Positions 16,251 to 60,586 of a DNA stretch of 64,000 nt are shown piece by piece. Position 1 is the stretch's first letter, and the number at the start of each line of letters is the position of its first letter. Source of the DNA: a virus; the IMG/VR virus record IMGVR_UViG_3300034092_004324, positions 1 to 64,000 of that record, one strand, 5' to 3'. The translations under genes were made by a program, and so were the position numbers. The notes under the pieces are model-generated. The model saw only the letters and a list, made by a program, of their open reading frames with translations. It was not told where the DNA came from and searched no databases.

Positions 16251-16984
16251 GATATAGGTATTTTTTGTTGGGTTATCAATATTTCGTTAATTAACTTAAA
16301 ATGATTACATCCAAAGAATCCTCGATGAGCACTTAAAGGTGATGGATGTGGAGAAGTTAATATATGATTTCTATCTTTATCAATAAATTCTATATATTTT
16401 AAAGCATTGCTGCCCCATAAAACATATATTACATTTTCTTTTTTTCTAAGTTCTTCAAATACTACTTTTGTAAAATTTTCCCAATATTTCACATGAGAAT
16501 TTGGCTTATTATCAACAACAGTTAATGCTGTATTTAATAATAGTACACCTTGATATGCCCAACTTTTCAAAGTGTAATCAAAATCCAATATCAAAGTATC
16601 ATGTTCATTTTGCAACTCCTTAACGATATTTTTTAAAGAAGCTGGTACAGCGAATGTATCTTCTGGAATTCCAAAAGCTAATCCAGTTGCAAAAGGTTTT
16701 ACTACATTAAGTTTACCAACTGGAACATATGATGTATAATATGGATCTTGTCCTAATATAACTACATTTGTAAAATCATATGGTGTTAATTTAAAAGCTT
16801 CAAATGTGTTTTGCCAATAGGGAAATACCTTATATCTCTTTTTATCTTCTAAAATCTCTTTAAAGTTATTTGTCATTTCTTTTGAACTCAAATATGGACC
16901 AAGTTTATTTAACCAAGATTCATGCATCATTGGTTTAAACTTTTCATTAATATTTGAGTTTTCAAACAGGTTGAGCTGAGTCAT
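16235..16984 (-). CDS. ung: Uracil-DNA glycosylase, family 1
   Basis: 249 aa. Removes uracil from DNA. Motif 1 VVILGQDPYYT carries the catalytic Asp; GLAFGIPEDTFAVPASLKNI, VLLLNTALTVVDNKPNSHVK, and the motif 2 loop TSPHPSPLSAHRGFFGC with the catalytic His are all as in bacterial UNG. Family-normal length. Sits beside the primase; several crAss-like phages carry a UNG next to replication genes. Confidence 0.96.
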   Translation of the reverse strand: MTQLNLFENSNINEKFKPMMHESWLNKLGPYLSSKEMTNNFKEILEDKKRYKVFPYWQNTFEAFKLTPYDFTNVVILGQDPYYTSYVPVGKLNVVKPFATGLAFGIPEDTFAVPASLKNIVKELQNEHDTLILDFDYTLKSWAYQGVLLLNTALTVVDNKPNSHVKYWENFTKVVFEELRKKENVIYVLWGSNALKYIEFIDKDRNHILTSPHPSPLSAHRGFFGCNHFKLINEILITQQKIPISWWKK

Positions 16985-18053
16985 TTTTTTTTAAAATTTC
17001 ATTTATATAATTATAAGTTTTTTCTCTTCCATGTTCCAAAACATATCCTTTTAAATCTTTTTCTTTTTCTGGAAATAATAAGTAATTTAAATTCATATGA
17101 TCGTCGTATTGTTCAATAATTCTTGACATTGATTTATATCCTGTTGGATCTGGATCATAATTTAAAAATACATCTTTATCTTTTAGAAATTTAAAAATCT
17201 TTTCTGGAAATTTAGTTACATGTTCAGATGCTGGTGATAAAGCTCTAAAACCAAATGAACCCCATATTTCAGCATCAATTGGTGATTTAGTTATAATTAC
17301 AGGATTTGTGCTTTTTGAAAAATTATCATACCACATATCAAATGTTACATTTTTTCTATGTTTAATTATCTTTCCATTTTTATCCAAAGTTTTATTGAAT
17401 GGTAAATATATATGAAAATGTTCAGGTGAATATTGAAATACAAAAACAGGATTTGTTCCATCAACTGAACGCAACTGTTTTGTGAATTTTTTTTCATTAT
17501 TTTCATCGTAATACTCAAATGTAACATTATAAGCAGTTTTTACAGCATTTTTAATTTTTCTATAATAAGCATCTCCAAGTAACTTTATTAAATAAAGTTC
17601 TTCAGTAGTATTATGTAATAATCTACAAGTAGGAATTATTTTTAATTTAAACTTCTTATTTGATATTGAAGGTTTATCTTCTTTATCTTCATTTATACTT
17701 TTAATTAATTTTAAATTAGTAGTATTGATTTGAAAAGATCTTTCAATGTATTTTAATACTTCAAAAAATGTATAAACTCTATCGTGCTTATGTTCATAAT
17801 AATTCTTTGCCATTTGGAAACAATCACCAGAATATTTATCATCAGCAAAATCTTTAAAAATTAATACATTATCATTGTTATAATAAAATTTACATCCTGG
17901 ATTTCTATCAATTCCTACTTTCCTATAAGGATTTACATATTGCTTTGATATTTCAATTACTTTTGGAAAGTATCTTTGCATTATTTCTTCTTGCTTAACT
18001 TTTTTAAGCAAAGAATCTTTTAATGAAACTTCCGCTTTGTTATTTATCACCAT
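16962..18053 (-). CDS. DnaG-type DNA primase
   Basis: 363 aa. The N-terminal third carries PGCKFYYNNDNVLIFKDFAD, resembling the degenerate zinc-binding region of phage primases. A TOPRIM-like core follows: VIITKSPIDAEIWGSFGFRA (conserved acidic residue), then FLNYDPDPTGYKSM (DxD). Makes RNA primers for lagging-strand synthesis together with the DnaB-like helicase encoded at 19693-20802. It overlaps ung by 23 nt. Confidence 0.85.
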   Translation of the reverse strand: MVINNKAEVSLKDSLLKKVKQEEIMQRYFPKVIEISKQYVNPYRKVGIDRNPGCKFYYNNDNVLIFKDFADDKYSGDCFQMAKNYYEHKHDRVYTFFEVLKYIERSFQINTTNLKLIKSINEDKEDKPSISNKKFKLKIIPTCRLLHNTTEELYLIKLLGDAYYRKIKNAVKTAYNVTFEYYDENNEKKFTKQLRSVDGTNPVFVFQYSPEHFHIYLPFNKTLDKNGKIIKHRKNVTFDMWYDNFSKSTNPVIITKSPIDAEIWGSFGFRALSPASEHVTKFPEKIFKFLKDKDVFLNYDPDPTGYKSMSRIIEQYDDHMNLNYLLFPEKEKDLKGYVLEHGREKTYNYINEILKKNDSAQPV

Positions 18054-18072: not shown

Positions 18073-18131
18073 TTTCTGGCTTTGGAGTCGAACCAAAGAC
18101 CTCAATGCATACTACCTTTATACGACCAGAA
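18073..18131 (-). ncRNA. tRNA-like RNA without an anticodon arm
   Basis: Minus strand: acceptor TTCTGGT pairs with GCCAGAA (7 pairs, one G-U), discriminator A, no encoded CCA. T arm TTTGG-TTCGACT-CCAAA is perfect and has the canonical T loop. A D-like arm includes AAGGTAG. Between it and the T arm there are only about 10 nt (CATTGAGGTC) where a tRNA has 23, so there is no anticodon arm. It fills the gap between the SSB and primase genes. Compare three similar elements at 50.3-52.5 kb. Confidence 0.7.
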
Positions 18132-18140
18132 GCCGTTAAA

Positions 18141-18947
18141 TTAGATGCTCAAATCATCCTCAGTCAAATCATTTAAAACATCATCTAAATTAGACGCTTT
18201 AAATTCTTTTGACATGGAAGGTTTTCCACTTGCATATTCTTCTAAATTAATAGTATAGTAATCTACTTTAAATTCTGTATATGGTTGTGAAAGGAACCTT
18301 TCGATAATTTTAGTACCGTTTGATTCTTCTCTTAGAAACTTATGCTTGTAAACTTCTTGATACTCTTTACCATTTACAACTTTAACACCAAGTAAAACTT
18401 TAATTCCTCTTTTAAAATGATCATTAATAGAAACAAGTTCGGAAACGTTTCCATTTATAATTGCATTAATATCAGAAAATTCAAAGTCTAAATCTTCAGC
18501 ATTTAAATCAGCATTCACTAAGTTACTAACAAAGTTATATAAAATATCTTCACCTTCTTTACAATATCTAACATTGTCGGTGCTGAACCATTTCATTTTT
18601 TCATTTTGCTTAACAGCATCAATGCTTTCAGCAATAGTAGTTTGCAGCTTATTGTTAATCAATAGTTTCTTACCATTTTTGTAAGTTATTTCTTGATTAG
18701 ACATAAAAACTGAAAACTTAGTTAAAATGTTCAGATCTTCATTTCTCAACCAGAAATCAATCCTTGTTGTTGGATTACCATCTCTATTTGTTTGTGAATA
18801 TGATACTTCTTTAACTTCATCGTTGTTTAATAGTTGTCTTAATTCTTGTGTAGTTGGATTGATTGCTACTACTTTAACTGGTGCTAAACCTGTATATAAT
18901 TTTTTGTTCGTAATAGTTGCTTGTTTCGTGTTTAAAATATTGCTCAT
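18141..18947 (-). CDS. Putative single-stranded DNA-binding protein
   Basis: 268 aa, soluble, beta-rich, with an acidic C-terminal tail (DDVLNDLTEDDLSI) of the kind SSBs use to bind partner proteins. It is directly downstream of the Sak4-like ATPase gene, a frequent SSB-Sak4 pairing in phages. No sequence motif is decisive, so the call rests on tail, context and crAss-like gene order. Confidence 0.6.
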   Translation of the reverse strand: MSNILNTKQATITNKKLYTGLAPVKVVAINPTTQELRQLLNNDEVKEVSYSQTNRDGNPTTRIDFWLRNEDLNILTKFSVFMSNQEITYKNGKKLLINNKLQTTIAESIDAVKQNEKMKWFSTDNVRYCKEGEDILYNFVSNLVNADLNAEDLDFEFSDINAIINGNVSELVSINDHFKRGIKVLLGVKVVNGKEYQEVYKHKFLREESNGTKIIERFLSQPYTEFKVDYYTINLEEYASGKPSMSKEFKASNLDDVLNDLTEDDLSI

Positions 18948-43434: not shown

Positions 43435-43640
43435 TACTTATTTTTGTTAAGTTTGGAAAATCTTTTATTTAGTTTTTTAACTTTATCTTCTGCTCTTGCT
43501 TTATCGTAAAATAAAATTGCAGTATCTACCCAAGTATATACTAAAGTTCTTTTAACTCTGACTTGAAGTCTAAAGTTTGTTACGTTGTGGTTTGTCTCAG
43601 GTTTTAATCTAAATGACCTGAGTTTTTTTGTGCTTTTCAT
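43434..43640 (-). CDS. Small basic protein (68 aa)
   Basis: Very basic (MKSTKKLRSFRLKPE, LNKRFSKLNKNK) with RVKRTLVYTWVDTAILFYDK in the middle. Stop shares a base with the next start. Possible nucleic-acid binding (inference). Confidence 0.58.
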   Translation of the reverse strand: MKSTKKLRSFRLKPETNHNVTNFRLQVRVKRTLVYTWVDTAILFYDKARAEDKVKKLNKRFSKLNKNK

Positions 43641-44266: not shown

Positions 44267-44440
44267 TTAAAATACGATTTTAAAATTTTTTAAATGAAAA
44301 AAAATTTTAATAAGAGATCTATTTTGTATTAACATTGTCATTTTTCTTTGTTCTACAAACCATTCACTTTTTAATTTTAAAAAACGAAATGTTTTATCAT
44401 ATAGTTGATCATCAGCATTATTTACTATTATTCGTTTCAT
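44267..44440 (-). CDS. Tiny protein (57 aa), MKRI family
   Basis: MKRIIVNNADDQLYDKTFRF, then EQRKMTMLIQNRSLIKIFF. Clear paralogue of the following gene: V-N-x-A-D-x-x-L-Y-x-K-x-F-R and K-M-T-M are aligned without gaps. Confidence 0.58.
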   Translation of the reverse strand: MKRIIVNNADDQLYDKTFRFLKLKSEWFVEQRKMTMLIQNRSLIKIFFHLKNFKIVF

Positions 44441-44592
44441 ATTAATCTCTTTTCATTATGAACAAAATCTGTAAATATAAGTATTGACATTGTCATTTTC
44501 TTTCGTTTAAACCATTTAGTTCTTAAATATTGATACCTAAATACTTTATTATATAATTCATAATCAGCATGATTTACCATTATTATTTTCAT
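44437..44592 (-). CDS. Tiny protein (51 aa), paralogue of its neighbour
   Basis: MKIIMVNHADYELYNKVFRY, then RTKWFKRKKMTMSILIF. Residues 1-42 align with the 57-aa product at 44267-44440, so the pair arose by tandem duplication. TGA overlaps the next ATG. Confidence 0.58.
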   Translation of the reverse strand: MKIIMVNHADYELYNKVFRYQYLRTKWFKRKKMTMSILIFTDFVHNEKRLI

Positions 44593-44593
44593 A

Positions 44594-44740
44594 TTATTCA
44601 AGATATTTTCCAAGAAAGAACATATTACTTATTACGCTAGATCTTTTAAAATATTTAATTCTTAAATAGTTTTTACTATATAAATTATCATCAAAACTAT
44701 ATAAATTATCATCAAAACGAAATGTAATTATTTTTTTCAT
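44594..44740 (-). CDS. Tiny protein (48 aa) with internal duplication
   Basis: MKKIITFRFDDNLYSFDDNL; FDDNLYS is encoded twice by a 21-nt tandem repeat (about 44675-44716). Then YLRIKYFKRSSVI, similar to YLRTKWFKRKK of the previous gene. Confidence 0.55.
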   Translation of the reverse strand: MKKIITFRFDDNLYSFDDNLYSKNYLRIKYFKRSSVISNMFFLGKYLE

Positions 44741-49848: not shown

Positions 49849-50292
49849 TTAAGAAGCAACAGACTTAGTCTTTGCTTTTACTTTTGTTGCCGGAGCCATC
49901 ATTTTCTCTTTTTGAGCCAATGCAATATCAGCTGGTTGAGAGAAGATTGTAATTGGATTAACCACATTGAGGTATTGAACCCCGGTCAATTCAATTTTAG
50001 TTGGCACTCCATTTTTGGTTTTGTAGTGCAACTCATTGGCTACAGTTTTAATTGGTCTTTTAGTTTTGCTGTCAAGCAAAAGTTCCCTGTTGGTTGACGC
50101 AGGATTAATCACATAGTGATTACGATCTGTTGGATCGTAGTTGTCATCACCACGCATTAAATTGCGGCATTTTTGTCCATCGCGATCAAGTAAGTTATAT
50201 TCAACAACGTTGAATAATTCTTTTTCATTGCGATCTTTGCCGAAACGATTTTTCTCTTCAGCAGTGTTTGGGTAAACCAAAATAATGTTCAT
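49849..50292 (-). CDS. Hypothetical protein (147 aa) with basic A/K tail
   Basis: MNIILVYPNTAEEKNRFGKD; beta-rich, with GVQYLNVVNPITIFSQPADI and an unstructured tail (MMAPATKVKAKTKSVAS). Notably richer in G+C than the tiny genes. Function unknown; the tail suggests nucleic-acid or chaperone contact (weak). Confidence 0.7.
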   Translation of the reverse strand: MNIILVYPNTAEEKNRFGKDRNEKELFNVVEYNLLDRDGQKCRNLMRGDDNYDPTDRNHYVINPASTNRELLLDSKTKRPIKTVANELHYKTKNGVPTKIELTGVQYLNVVNPITIFSQPADIALAQKEKMMAPATKVKAKTKSVAS

Positions 50293-50338: not shown

Positions 50339-50430
50339 TACACCACAGCGGACTCGAACCGCCAACATCTTTTACAAGACCTTCTGCCGAGCACTGTTTA
50401 ATGAAAAACAGCACATTGAAGTAATGGTGT
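50339..50430 (-). ncRNA. Aberrant tRNA-like RNA with hairpin inserted in the D loop
   Basis: Acceptor ACACCAT pairs with GTGGTGT (one G-U), discriminator A, no CCA. T arm GGCGG-TTCGAGT-CCGCT is canonical. D stem CTTC/GAAG encloses a 33-nt loop that contains a hairpin CTGTTT-TTCATT-AAACAG. Only 17 nt (GTCTTGTAAAAGATGTT) separate the D and T arms, where 23 are expected; no 5-bp stem with a 7-nt anticodon loop fits. Confidence 0.7.
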
Positions 50431-50668
50431 ATTGCTCCATACGTTTCTTCTATGATTTTATTTACGTCGATGAAATATCTCGCTACATGCTACAATTGAA
50501 TCTTGGGGATTCATTTCCAACTATTTTCACAGGAAATAATGTAACATGGTCACGGCAAAATATAAATTCTATAACTTACATGACCAGGGAAATAGATAAA
50601 CTGGTACTGGGTTATGTTGTTACCATCATTGAATTTGTGACGCTTTTTATTCAAAGAATACTTTGTAG
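50431..50668. other. Non-coding spacer between two tRNA-like elements
   Basis: No convincing gene; an open plus-strand frame here overlaps both RNA elements and has no operon partner. Hairpins: TGGTCATG/CGTGACCA (minus, about 50548-50596) and GAATC...GATTC (about 50499-50513). Confidence 0.5.
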
Positions 50669-50722
50669 TGACCCCGATAGGATTTGAACCTATAAAATCG
50701 CTCCCAACTGAGCTACGGAATC
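50669..50722 (-). ncRNA. Minimal tRNA-like RNA lacking the anticodon arm (54 nt)
   Basis: Acceptor GATTCCG pairs with CGGGGTC (two G-U), spacer TA, D arm GCTC-AGTTGG-GAGC, six-nt linker GATTTT, T arm ATAGG-TTCAAAT-CCTAT, discriminator A. Everything except the anticodon arm matches a normal tRNA, and the linker is too short to hold one. Confidence 0.78.
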
Positions 50723-50734
50723 ATATTATAAATT

Positions 50735-50822
50735 AAAAGAAAGGAGGGTAAAAAAAGAATAAAACTACTAAAACTTTCTTTCAAAACAACGAGATGTGTC
50801 AAATTAATCCCTCCTTTCTTTT
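50735..50822. repeat. Long hairpin 1 (14-bp arms)
   Basis: AAAAGAAAGGAGGG (50735-50748) and CCCTCCTTTCTTTT (50809-50822) are perfect inverted repeats 60 nt apart. With flanking T runs it may terminate the small gene at 50827-50958, but the loop is unusually long. Confidence 0.8.
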
Positions 50823-51883: not shown

Positions 51884-51919
51884 AGTTATATGTTTTTGAT
51901 TTATTTTGATTTGAAGTAG

Positions 51920-51993
51920 TAGAAATAACGAGACTCGAACTCGTAACCTACAGATTAGAAATCTGTTGCTCTATCCAATTAAGCTATATTTCT
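51920..51993 (-). tRNA. tRNA-Arg (anticodon TCT)
   Basis: Complete cloverleaf: acceptor AGAAATA/TATTTCT, TA, D arm GCTT-AATTGGATA-GAGC, anticodon arm ACAGA-TTTCTAA-TCTGT, variable AGGTT, T arm ACGAG-TTCGAGT-CTCGT, discriminator A, CCA not encoded. It reads AGA, a codon used heavily in this A+T-rich genome. It is the only normal tRNA in the window. Confidence 0.97.
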
Positions 51994-52481: not shown

Positions 52482-52546
52482 TGACCAATACAGGAGTCGA
52501 ACCCGTTCAATGAAAACATCTTCTCATTGTTCCACATTAATTGGTC
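52482..52546 (-). ncRNA. tRNA-like RNA with one long central hairpin
   Basis: Acceptor GACCAAT/ATTGGTC is perfect (7 bp), TA spacer, T arm ACGGG-TTCGACT-CCTGT, discriminator A. In place of D and anticodon arms there is ATGTGGAA and then a 9-bp hairpin (CAATGAGAA-GATG-TTTTCATTG, one G-U) with a four-base loop. A 62-aa minus-strand frame over it (52451-52639) is not accepted as a gene. Confidence 0.72.
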
Positions 52547-52553
52547 TGGTAAA

Positions 52554-52622
52554 AAAACCTCATCACTTGTATTCTCTTCTGTTAGAACAGTATAGAGACC
52601 TTTGCATGGGTGATGAGGTTTT
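52554..52622. repeat. Long hairpin 4 (13-bp arms)
   Basis: AAAACCTCATCAC (52554-52566) and GTGATGAGGTTTT (52610-52622), perfect, 43 nt apart, starting 8 nt from the 5' end of the tRNA-like element. Confidence 0.8.
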
Positions 52623-58927: not shown

Positions 58928-60586
58928 ATGATTAAAGGAACTATTTTTGGAAGTGAAGCAAGACTTAAATTGAAGACAGGCGTTGATACGTTAGCTAATG
59001 CAGTTAAGGTAACGCTTGGTCCTCAAGGAAGAAATGTAATTATTGATAAGAACTTCATTACGCCACACATTACAAAGGATGGTGTAACAGTTGCTTCTGA
59101 GATTACATTAGAAGATCGTATAGAAAATATAGCTTGTTCTATGTTGAAAGATATAGCTAAAAAGACAGCTGATGAAGCTGGTGATGGAACTACTACTGCA
59201 ACAGTATTAGCACAGGCTATTTTTGATGAAGGTTTAAAGCAGTTAGTTAATACTAATAGTATTGAATTAAAGACTGGAATGAATCTTGCTCTGTATGATG
59301 TTGTTAGAATGATAAAAAATAAAGCAGAGAGTATTTCAACAAGACAAGAACTGGAACATGTAGCTATGATATCAGCAAATAATGATGTTGAAATAGCTTC
59401 AAGAGTTGCTGATATATTTGAGAGAATTGGTAAAAATGGTATTATTCAAGTAAATAAGAATAATGATGAAAATGTAACAAGTTATGATTTTAGCAAAGGT
59501 ATGAAATATGACTGTGGTTATATTGATCAAATCTTTGCAACTGATTTAGAAAAGCAAGAAAGTATTTTAATTAATCCTTTGGTGTTTATTACTAATGAGA
59601 AGTTGACGCATTTTGAACCATTGATGCCTTTTGCTAAAGTAGCTGTTGAACAAAAAAGACCTTTACTGATTATAGCTGATGAAATTACTGGTCATGCTAA
59701 AGCTGCTTTAATAGCTAATTATAAGGAGAATAATTTGAAGGTATGTGCAGTATTCCCACCTGGTATTGCTAATCAACGAAAAGAGCTTTTAGAGGACATT
59801 GCATGTATTACTAAAACTACAATCGTAGGTGATGCTTATGGTTATCCTTTTCATAGAGCTGCTGATAAAGCTAAACTATTCTTAGGTTCATGTGGACAGG
59901 TTGTTGTTACAAGAAGTAATACGACGTTTATTGATCCAGTTATTTCAGAGGAAGATCTTAATAAGCGAATTGCTGAGATTGAATCTCATAAAGATTTGAA
60001 TGACAAACATAAATTGATTCAAGCTAAGTTTGATAAACGTATCGCTACTTTAAAGGAGAATGTCGCTACATTGAATGTTGGAGGTTTTACTGAACTTGAA
60101 GTAAAGGAGAAGAAAGATAGGTACGACGATGCTATATGTGCTGTACGTGCTGCTCTTGAAGAAGGTGTTGTTCCTGGTGGTGGTTTTTCTTATTTAGCAG
60201 TTGCTAAGTTTTTAGAAAACAGTAAACCAGAGTTTAAAAACTCACACCAAGAGAAAGGTTATAACATTGTACTTGAAGCTATTAAAGTACCGTTTAAACA
60301 GATTGCTGACAACTGTGGAGTAGATTATAGTTTTATTGAAGGTTTAGTAGATTATGATTTTGAGAATAATAAAGGTTATGACTTTAGAAATAGACAAGTT
60401 GTTGATGATATGATTAAATATGGTATTGTTGACCCTGCTAAAGTTACACGTATAGCTATCGAAAATGCAGTATCTATTGCAGGTTTGATGTTAACAACAG
60501 AAGCAATAGTGTTTAACAAACTTAATGAAAATGATTTAGCAAACATTCAGAGAGGTAAGGACGTTGCTGGTAAAACTTTTGAATAA
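58928..60586 (+). CDS. groEL: GroEL chaperonin
   Basis: 552 aa, normal length. VTLGPQGRNVIIDK, ITKDGVTVASEI, the ATP-binding DGTTTATVLAQ, and RYDDAICAVRAALEEGVVPG with GGGFSYLAV are all conserved. The C-terminal GGM repeat is missing; the protein ends in RGKDVAGKTFE. An ATP-driven folding chamber for structural proteins. A few large phages carry their own GroEL. Confidence 0.97.
   Translation: MIKGTIFGSEARLKLKTGVDTLANAVKVTLGPQGRNVIIDKNFITPHITKDGVTVASEITLEDRIENIACSMLKDIAKKTADEAGDGTTTATVLAQAIFDEGLKQLVNTNSIELKTGMNLALYDVVRMIKNKAESISTRQELEHVAMISANNDVEIASRVADIFERIGKNGIIQVNKNNDENVTSYDFSKGMKYDCGYIDQIFATDLEKQESILINPLVFITNEKLTHFEPLMPFAKVAVEQKRPLLIIADEITGHAKAALIANYKENNLKVCAVFPPGIANQRKELLEDIACITKTTIVGDAYGYPFHRAADKAKLFLGSCGQVVVTRSNTTFIDPVISEEDLNKRIAEIESHKDLNDKHKLIQAKFDKRIATLKENVATLNVGGFTELEVKEKKDRYDDAICAVRAALEEGVVPGGGFSYLAVAKFLENSKPEFKNSHQEKGYNIVLEAIKVPFKQIADNCGVDYSFIEGLVDYDFENNKGYDFRNRQVVDDMIKYGIVDPAKVTRIAIENAVSIAGLMLTTEAIVFNKLNENDLANIQRGKDVAGKTFE

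Follow-up and report, generated by a model that had tools for sequence, protein, structure and literature searches.

What becomes of a tRNA that has lost the means to decode? The question is raised by a 54-nt element on the minus strand of the IMG/VR virus record IMGVR_UViG_3300034092_004324, the first 64,000 nucleotides of which (referred to below as the window) were analysed here. We designate it TLE-C, for tRNA-like element (TLE). It belongs to a class of phage RNAs that retains the coaxial acceptor-T domain and usually the D-arm elbow, with the anticodon arm deleted or replaced by a small hairpin or an unrelated insert. Members of the class recur in unrelated phages, are under class-wide selection for base pairing and often lie between co-directional genes. 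TLEs are probably derived from phage tRNA genes and, with about an even chance in our estimate, may act within polycistronic phage transcripts as modules for RNase P/RNase Z processing and for stability.

Structure of the 54-nt element

Read 5' to 3' from position 50722, TLE-C has the sequence GAUUCCG UA GCUC AGUUGG GAGC GAUUUU AUAGG UUCAAAU CCUAU CGGGGUC A, in which the acceptor (7/7, including the G-U pairs U3-G70 and U4-G69), the D stem (4/4) and the T stem (5/5) are all fully paired (Table 1). The minimum free energy (MFE) structure is a cloverleaf minus the anticodon arm (-16.0 kcal/mol, z = -2.6), and its energy was matched by 2 of 200 shuffled sequences. The Rfam tRNA model (RF00005) scores the element at 37.5 bits, as compared to a gathering score of 29, and aligns zero residues in the anticodon region; ARAGORN, run on the window, did not call it. 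The original prediction, made from the sequence alone, had described a tRNA-like RNA with all arms except the anticodon arm, and the pairing, the fold and the Rfam score confirm this description; the details, namely the paired stems, the two G-U pairs and the 6-nt linker, proved exact on the minus strand. Despite its match to the tRNA model above the cut-off, TLE-C is not a decoding tRNA: the anticodon arm with its 7-nt loop is absent and, because there is no anticodon, decoding is impossible. An intron was considered and rejected, as the linker is not flanked by anticodon-stem halves. TLE-C does have the acceptor stem stacked on a T stem-loop that characterizes substrates of RNase P and RNase Z.

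Recurrence and selection

Similar elements were sought with the pattern GCTCAGTTGGNAGAGC N{5,14} GGTTCRANTCC, which describes a tRNA D arm running directly into a T arm and leaves the acceptor unconstrained. It matched 34 other IMG/VR contigs, and the acceptor was paired at 7/7 positions in 20 of the 26 distinct pattern sequences, with very different acceptor sequences. In the acceptor alignment, 96.4% of the cells were paired and 113 were double-changed, as compared to 31 ± 4.4 in shuffles (cells count sequences, not events, so that some of this signal is shared ancestry). The covariation score was 0.698 vs 0.142 in shuffles and was lost when the partners were slid by 1–3 columns. Once the allowed gap was widened, linker lengths showed a peak at 8–9 nt, no elements at 0–5 nt, and a second group at 16–20 nt, consisting of short hairpins that were read by eye, such as ACTTGA-TTCG-TCAAG and CTACA-GAGA-TGTAG. 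Position 48, which lies outside the pattern, is a C in all 28 elements with the acceptor paired at ≥6 positions; therefore, the G15-C48 elbow pair is kept. TLE-C, with paired acceptor, D and T stems and a short linker leading from the D stem to the T stem, fits the proposed class, and a covariance model (model R1) trained on 26 elements from other phages, with the window left out, assigned it 47 bits (E = 2.7e-16) vs 32.8 bits for the true tRNA-Arg of the same genome.

The same pattern matched just 20 places in bacterial genomes totalling 257 Gb. Eight of these were discarded as normal tRNA genes in which assembly gaps, seen as NN in the anticodon region, mimic the loss of the arm (L134, L135, L138, L141, L143, L148, L149 and L150). 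The acceptor is fully paired in seven of the remaining 12, three of which are identical to IMG/VR elements.

Random deletion would not yield such a distribution of linker lengths or such compensatory changes, so random tRNA decay is rejected, with good support, for the TLE class, although not for the single copy TLE-C. The earlier claim that the 54-nt element is not a product of ordinary decay thus draws its support from other members of the class, through compensatory acceptor changes, the narrow linker, C48 and recurrence, rather than from the TLE-C locus.

Elements in related and cultured phages

Relatives of the TLE-C locus were sought through the neighbouring 147-aa protein and a primase-like protein, and the only one found (L001) was 100% identical over 10 kb. 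In a blastn search of the 2.3-kb region against phages the tRNA-Arg was the only match, and TLE-C itself had no blastn match. The terminase of the window phage shows up to 36% identity to terminases of crAss-like and flavobacterial phages and 29–52% identity to those of many IMG/VR contigs. Seventeen such contigs were read completely or for the most part, and TLEs are present in six of them (G064, G041, G035, G045, G062 and G046, with two in G035); five have no ARAGORN call and one is called tRNA-Leu(TAA). Apart from a 65-nt form in G046, these elements consist of a tRNA-Leu-like chassis (TGGCGGAAT(T)GGTAGACG..) in which unrelated inserts of 33–125 nt replace the anticodon arm. The acceptors of the chassis are all fully paired yet different in sequence, and the inserts vary freely. 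These TLEs lie on the strand opposite terL, about 5–15 kb upstream of it, as do three of the elements of the window phage (TLE-B, -C and -D). G041 and G064 have a single TLE each in 89–99 kb genomes devoid of any tRNA. At the corresponding place in G060 there are a normal tRNA-Leu(TAA) and a normal tRNA-Arg(TCT), pointing to an origin of the chassis by conversion of tRNA genes. The two chassis of G035 (L273:2317-2478 and L273:2544-2682), which neither ARAGORN nor Rfam calls, are 65 nt apart and hold inserts of 109 and 86 nt.

A perfect 58-nt TLE, with its ends at 43546 and 43603, is present in the cultured Polaribacter phage Danklef under the annotation 'tRNA-OTHER, Undet (NNN)'; the source paper includes it as one tRNA in its count (PMC8776804). 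Upstream, a terminator-like hairpin stops 4 nt short of it, and downstream there are 14 nt before the next gene begins. The agreement of the five Danklef isolates, together with several similar independent contigs, rules out assembly error as a general explanation. Danklef and its near relative Freya differ here by a swapped gene cassette (L151:3092-3555 vs L442:729-1082), which in Danklef has the order gene, terminator-like hairpin, TLE; its right edge lies 3 nt past the TLE, where homology between the two phages picks up again.

Genomic placement

Many TLEs are located between co-directional genes, and several adjoin capsid or terminase genes. With gene directions taken from crude calling of open reading frames (ORFs), both neighbours were co-directional with the TLE in 21 cases and both opposed in two, the rest being mixed or cut by contig ends. 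In the L008 group the TLE separates the gene for the major head protein from one for a tail protein and lies 25 nt ahead of the start codon; in the podovirus L016 it is found between the genes for the scaffold and major head proteins, in L027 upstream of the major head protein gene, and in L005, L136 and L137 upstream of terminase. An Alt-like activator gene precedes the TLE in L139, and terminase genes are found near those in L131 and L142. Because of these adjoining terminase and Alt-like genes (L136, L137, L139, L131 and L142), these bacterial loci are read as prophages. The major capsid gene of the cyanophage NATL1A-7 is immediately preceded by a normal tRNA-Gly (L153:2058-2128), at the position that the TLE occupies in L016. 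No TLE is present in the capsid regions of the T7-like phages S-CBP1, S-CBP2, HTVC019P and HTVC304P or in P-SSP7, of which nearly the whole genome was covered.

Strong hairpins end ≤15 nt upstream of 33–43% of TLEs vs 4–10% in shuffles. Terminator-like hairpins with a T run show no clear enrichment upstream of TLEs (2/25 and 1/30, with 10/105 for normal tRNAs and 29/1020 for random positions).

Other elements in the window phage

A strict descriptor of the acceptor and T arm was applied to both strands of the entire 78-kb record. It requires a 5-bp T stem with a closing G-C pair and the loop T[TG]C[AG]ANN and, directly after it, a 7-nt strand paired at 7/7 positions, at most two of them G-U, with a partner 20–200 nt upstream. 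Five sites were found, all on the minus strand, compared with 0.1 per genome in second-order Markov shuffles of the record: the normal tRNA-Arg and four odd elements, three of which (TLE-A, TLE-B and TLE-D) had been overlooked in the original prediction. All four are without a 7-nt anticodon loop and have discriminator A followed by C.

TLE-A occupies most of an 87-bp gap between the genes at 18141-18947 and 16962-18053; the start codon of the latter comes 19 nt after it. Its interior can be read as a D arm (UAUA-AAGGUAG-UAUG); the MFE fold rearranges the inner helices, and model R1 gives only 13.9 bits. In TLE-B a 9-bp hairpin is situated within the D-arm region and the stem at the anticodon position is capped by a GUAA tetraloop; 46 nt separate its end from the start codon of the gene at 49849-50292. 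The D arm of TLE-D is collapsed and the anticodon position holds a 9-bp hairpin with a GAUG tetraloop; its score with the Rfam tRNA model, 23.7 bits, is under the cut-off. The two perfect inverted repeats listed in Table 1 have their near ends 12 nt upstream of TLE-C and 7 nt upstream of TLE-D, respectively.

Table 1. Positions of the tRNA-like elements and associated features in the window
Feature	Position	Strand	Description or source
TLE-C (54-nt tRNA-like element)	50669..50722	minus	sequence, Rfam, fold
TLE-C acceptor	50716-50722 with 50670-50676	minus	
TLE-C D stem	50710-50713 with 50700-50703	minus	
TLE-C linker	50694-50699	minus	6 nt, replacing the anticodon arm
TLE-C T stem	50689-50693 with 50677-50681	minus	
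TLE-C T loop	50682-50688	minus	
TLE-C discriminator	50669	minus	A
TLE-A	18073..18131	minus	acceptor UUCUGGU/GCCAGAA, T arm UUUGG-UUCGACU-CCAAA, no anticodon arm
TLE-B	50339..50430	minus	acceptor ACACCAU/GUGGUGU, T arm GGCGG-UUCGAGU-CCGCU
TLE-D	52482..52546	minus	acceptor GACCAAU/AUUGGUC, T arm ACGGG-UUCGACU-CCUGU
tRNA-Arg(TCT), normal	51919..51993	minus	sole ARAGORN tRNA call in the window; Rfam
Perfect 14-bp inverted repeat	50735..50822	minus	arms 50735-50748 and 50809-50822, 60-nt loop
Perfect 13-bp inverted repeat	52554..52622	minus	arms 52554-52566 and 52610-52622

The 238 nt separating TLE-C and TLE-B (50431-50668) contain no minus-strand ORF of more than 34 aa and show no unusual structure (z = -1.0); this stretch would be freed as an RNA if both elements were processed. 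Elsewhere the window encodes a GroEL-like chaperonin (58928-60586; Pfam Cpn60_TCP1, E = 7e-59) and contains a direct repeat (44326-44596) of two ~120-bp stretches, 78% alike and ~150 bp apart.

Proposed function and alternatives

Because TLEs keep the acceptor-T domain and the elbow, have dropped decoding and are situated between the genes of operons, a processing signal is the best explanation of the class. An acceptor with a T stem-loop is known to suffice as a model substrate of RNase P (PMC11143913). According to this model, a TLE would fold inside the nascent polycistronic transcript, and its 5' end would be cut by the host RNase P and its 3' end formed by RNase Z or by exonuclease trimming. 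The message would thereby be split in two: an upstream mRNA, often ending just behind a possibly protective hairpin, and a downstream mRNA whose new leader is short. Loss of the anticodon arm would remove the decoding role and leave a compact, stable processing substrate. Of the functions put forward in the original prediction, an mRNA processing signal is the one that fits best, judging by the intergenic position and the retained acceptor and T domain, from which we infer it. Somewhat more tentatively, and at slightly worse than even chances, we suggest that unrelated phage groups (crAss-like phages, T7-like podoviruses, flavobacterial siphoviruses and prophages of Gram-positive bacteria) have repeatedly made tRNAs into anticodon-less chassis, which would serve as mRNA punctuation or stability modules and in some crAss-like phages carry RNA cargo, and that tRNA finders mostly miss this class or list it as undetermined.

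Several observations weigh against a processing role. The acceptor and T domain would suit other tRNA-binding proteins equally well, and upstream hairpins also accompany normal phage tRNAs (18% vs 4% in shuffles). Some TLEs lie within tRNA arrays, where processing needs no special signal. The element is dispensable, since 11 of the 17 crAss-like relatives go without it, as does Freya, which has a different gene and no TLE at the place of the Danklef element. CCA is encoded in none of the four elements of the window phage. TLE-C itself has U at position 48, where C is invariant in other members of the class, and it has no diverged relative, the sole other copy found being identical.

Foremost among the alternatives, although unlikely, is a tRNA-scaffolded small RNA, to which the chassis would lend precise ends and exonuclease resistance; the insert of the long forms would be the cargo, and short forms such as the 54-mer would act via the chassis alone. 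The Leu-like chassis of the relatives, with their 33–125-nt inserts, speak for this explanation, as do the two different inserts of G035, but the inserts resemble neither each other nor any Rfam family and most TLEs have no cargo. Less likely again, TLEs could be decoys that titrate or redirect a host tRNA-binding factor, such as an anticodon nuclease, PNPase, another RNase, EF-Tu or a defence effector. Conservation of the elbow, T loop and acceptor with the anticodon systematically missing would agree with such a role, and so would the tRNA-like domain of the bacterial Y RNA YrlA, which binds PNPase and is similar to the acceptor, D and T arms (PMC8394870). Action in trans, however, would not require intergenic operon sites near start codons. 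As a variant of this reading, at the same low probability, a TLE, having no anticodon, might be uncuttable by anticodon nucleases, as the original prediction had it; against this, a nuclease that recognizes the anticodon would fail to bind it. A gene for Ro60/Rsr (TROVE, PF05731), the protein partner of Y RNAs, was found in none of 31 TLE-related records and was detected in Deinobacterium chartae as a positive control.

We consider it still less probable that TLEs are leftover tRNA genes, in which the decoding arm goes first after the need for the tRNA is lost and the remnant is kept only briefly. The normal tRNA-Leu and tRNA-Arg of G060, the TLEs in tRNA arrays, the lack of a diverged relative of TLE-C and the incompletely paired acceptor of 6 of the 26 pattern matches are all compatible with this explanation. 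It is disfavoured for the class by the compensatory acceptor changes, the narrow linker length and the invariant C48, by the lone TLEs in the tRNA-less genomes of G041 and G064 and by the presence of four separate elements in the window phage. Least probable by far is that TLEs are sites of recombination or attachment that go back to a tRNA gene: the TLE of Danklef does lie at the edge of a swapped cassette and tRNA fragments derived from integration are common in prokaryotes (PMC9897764), but such fragments copy a contiguous part of the tRNA rather than fusing its D arm to its T arm, selection is on RNA pairing, and no integrase was seen with several of the TLEs, which are located within structural operons.

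Should TLEs act as processing signals, then different phage lineages employ the tRNA-maturation enzymes of the host to define where their messages end. Danklef, with a TLE, and Freya, without one, provide a cultured test system for such a processing role, and the covariance model can be used to find more TLEs.

Comparison with known systems

TLEs share with canonical phage tRNA genes (Rfam RF00005) the acceptor, D and T arms, U8-A9, the GG of the D loop and the TTCRA T loop; they differ in having no anticodon arm or decoding capacity and in the 8–9-nt linker that recurs across the class. The tRNA-like domain of tmRNA likewise retains the acceptor and T arm and is missing the anticodon arm. In contrast to tmRNA, TLEs have no tag reading frame, and identity with tmRNA was rejected for TLE-C, as neither ARAGORN nor Rfam reports one in the window.

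A bacterial parallel in shape is YrlA, the partner of Ro60/Rsr: one domain of this non-coding RNA imitates the acceptor, D and T arms of a tRNA (PMC8394870). In YrlA, which is 90–150 nt long, that domain is connected to a long end stem to which Rsr binds, whereas a TLE is a free-standing cloverleaf remnant. TLE-C was rejected as a Y RNA because it has a closed 7-bp acceptor and no long end stem, because Rfam finds no Y RNA in the window, and because Ro60/Rsr, on which Y RNAs depend, is not encoded in the 31 TLE-related records. Cleavage by RNase P has been described for a viral tRNA-like structure (PMC11143913); the model substrates of this enzyme are either synthetic or taken from the 3' end of a plant RNA virus, and TLEs are internal, between the genes of DNA phages. 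The short mitochondrial tRNAs of nematodes and mites also miss an arm, but there it is the D and/or T arm that has gone and the anticodon arm that stays, opposite to the situation in TLEs (PMC7609411). While tRNA-like RNAs as such are already known, our searches of the open-access literature, which leaves out most subscription journals, turned up no account of tRNAs in which the decoding arm alone is missing and which are found repeatedly between the genes of DNA phages.
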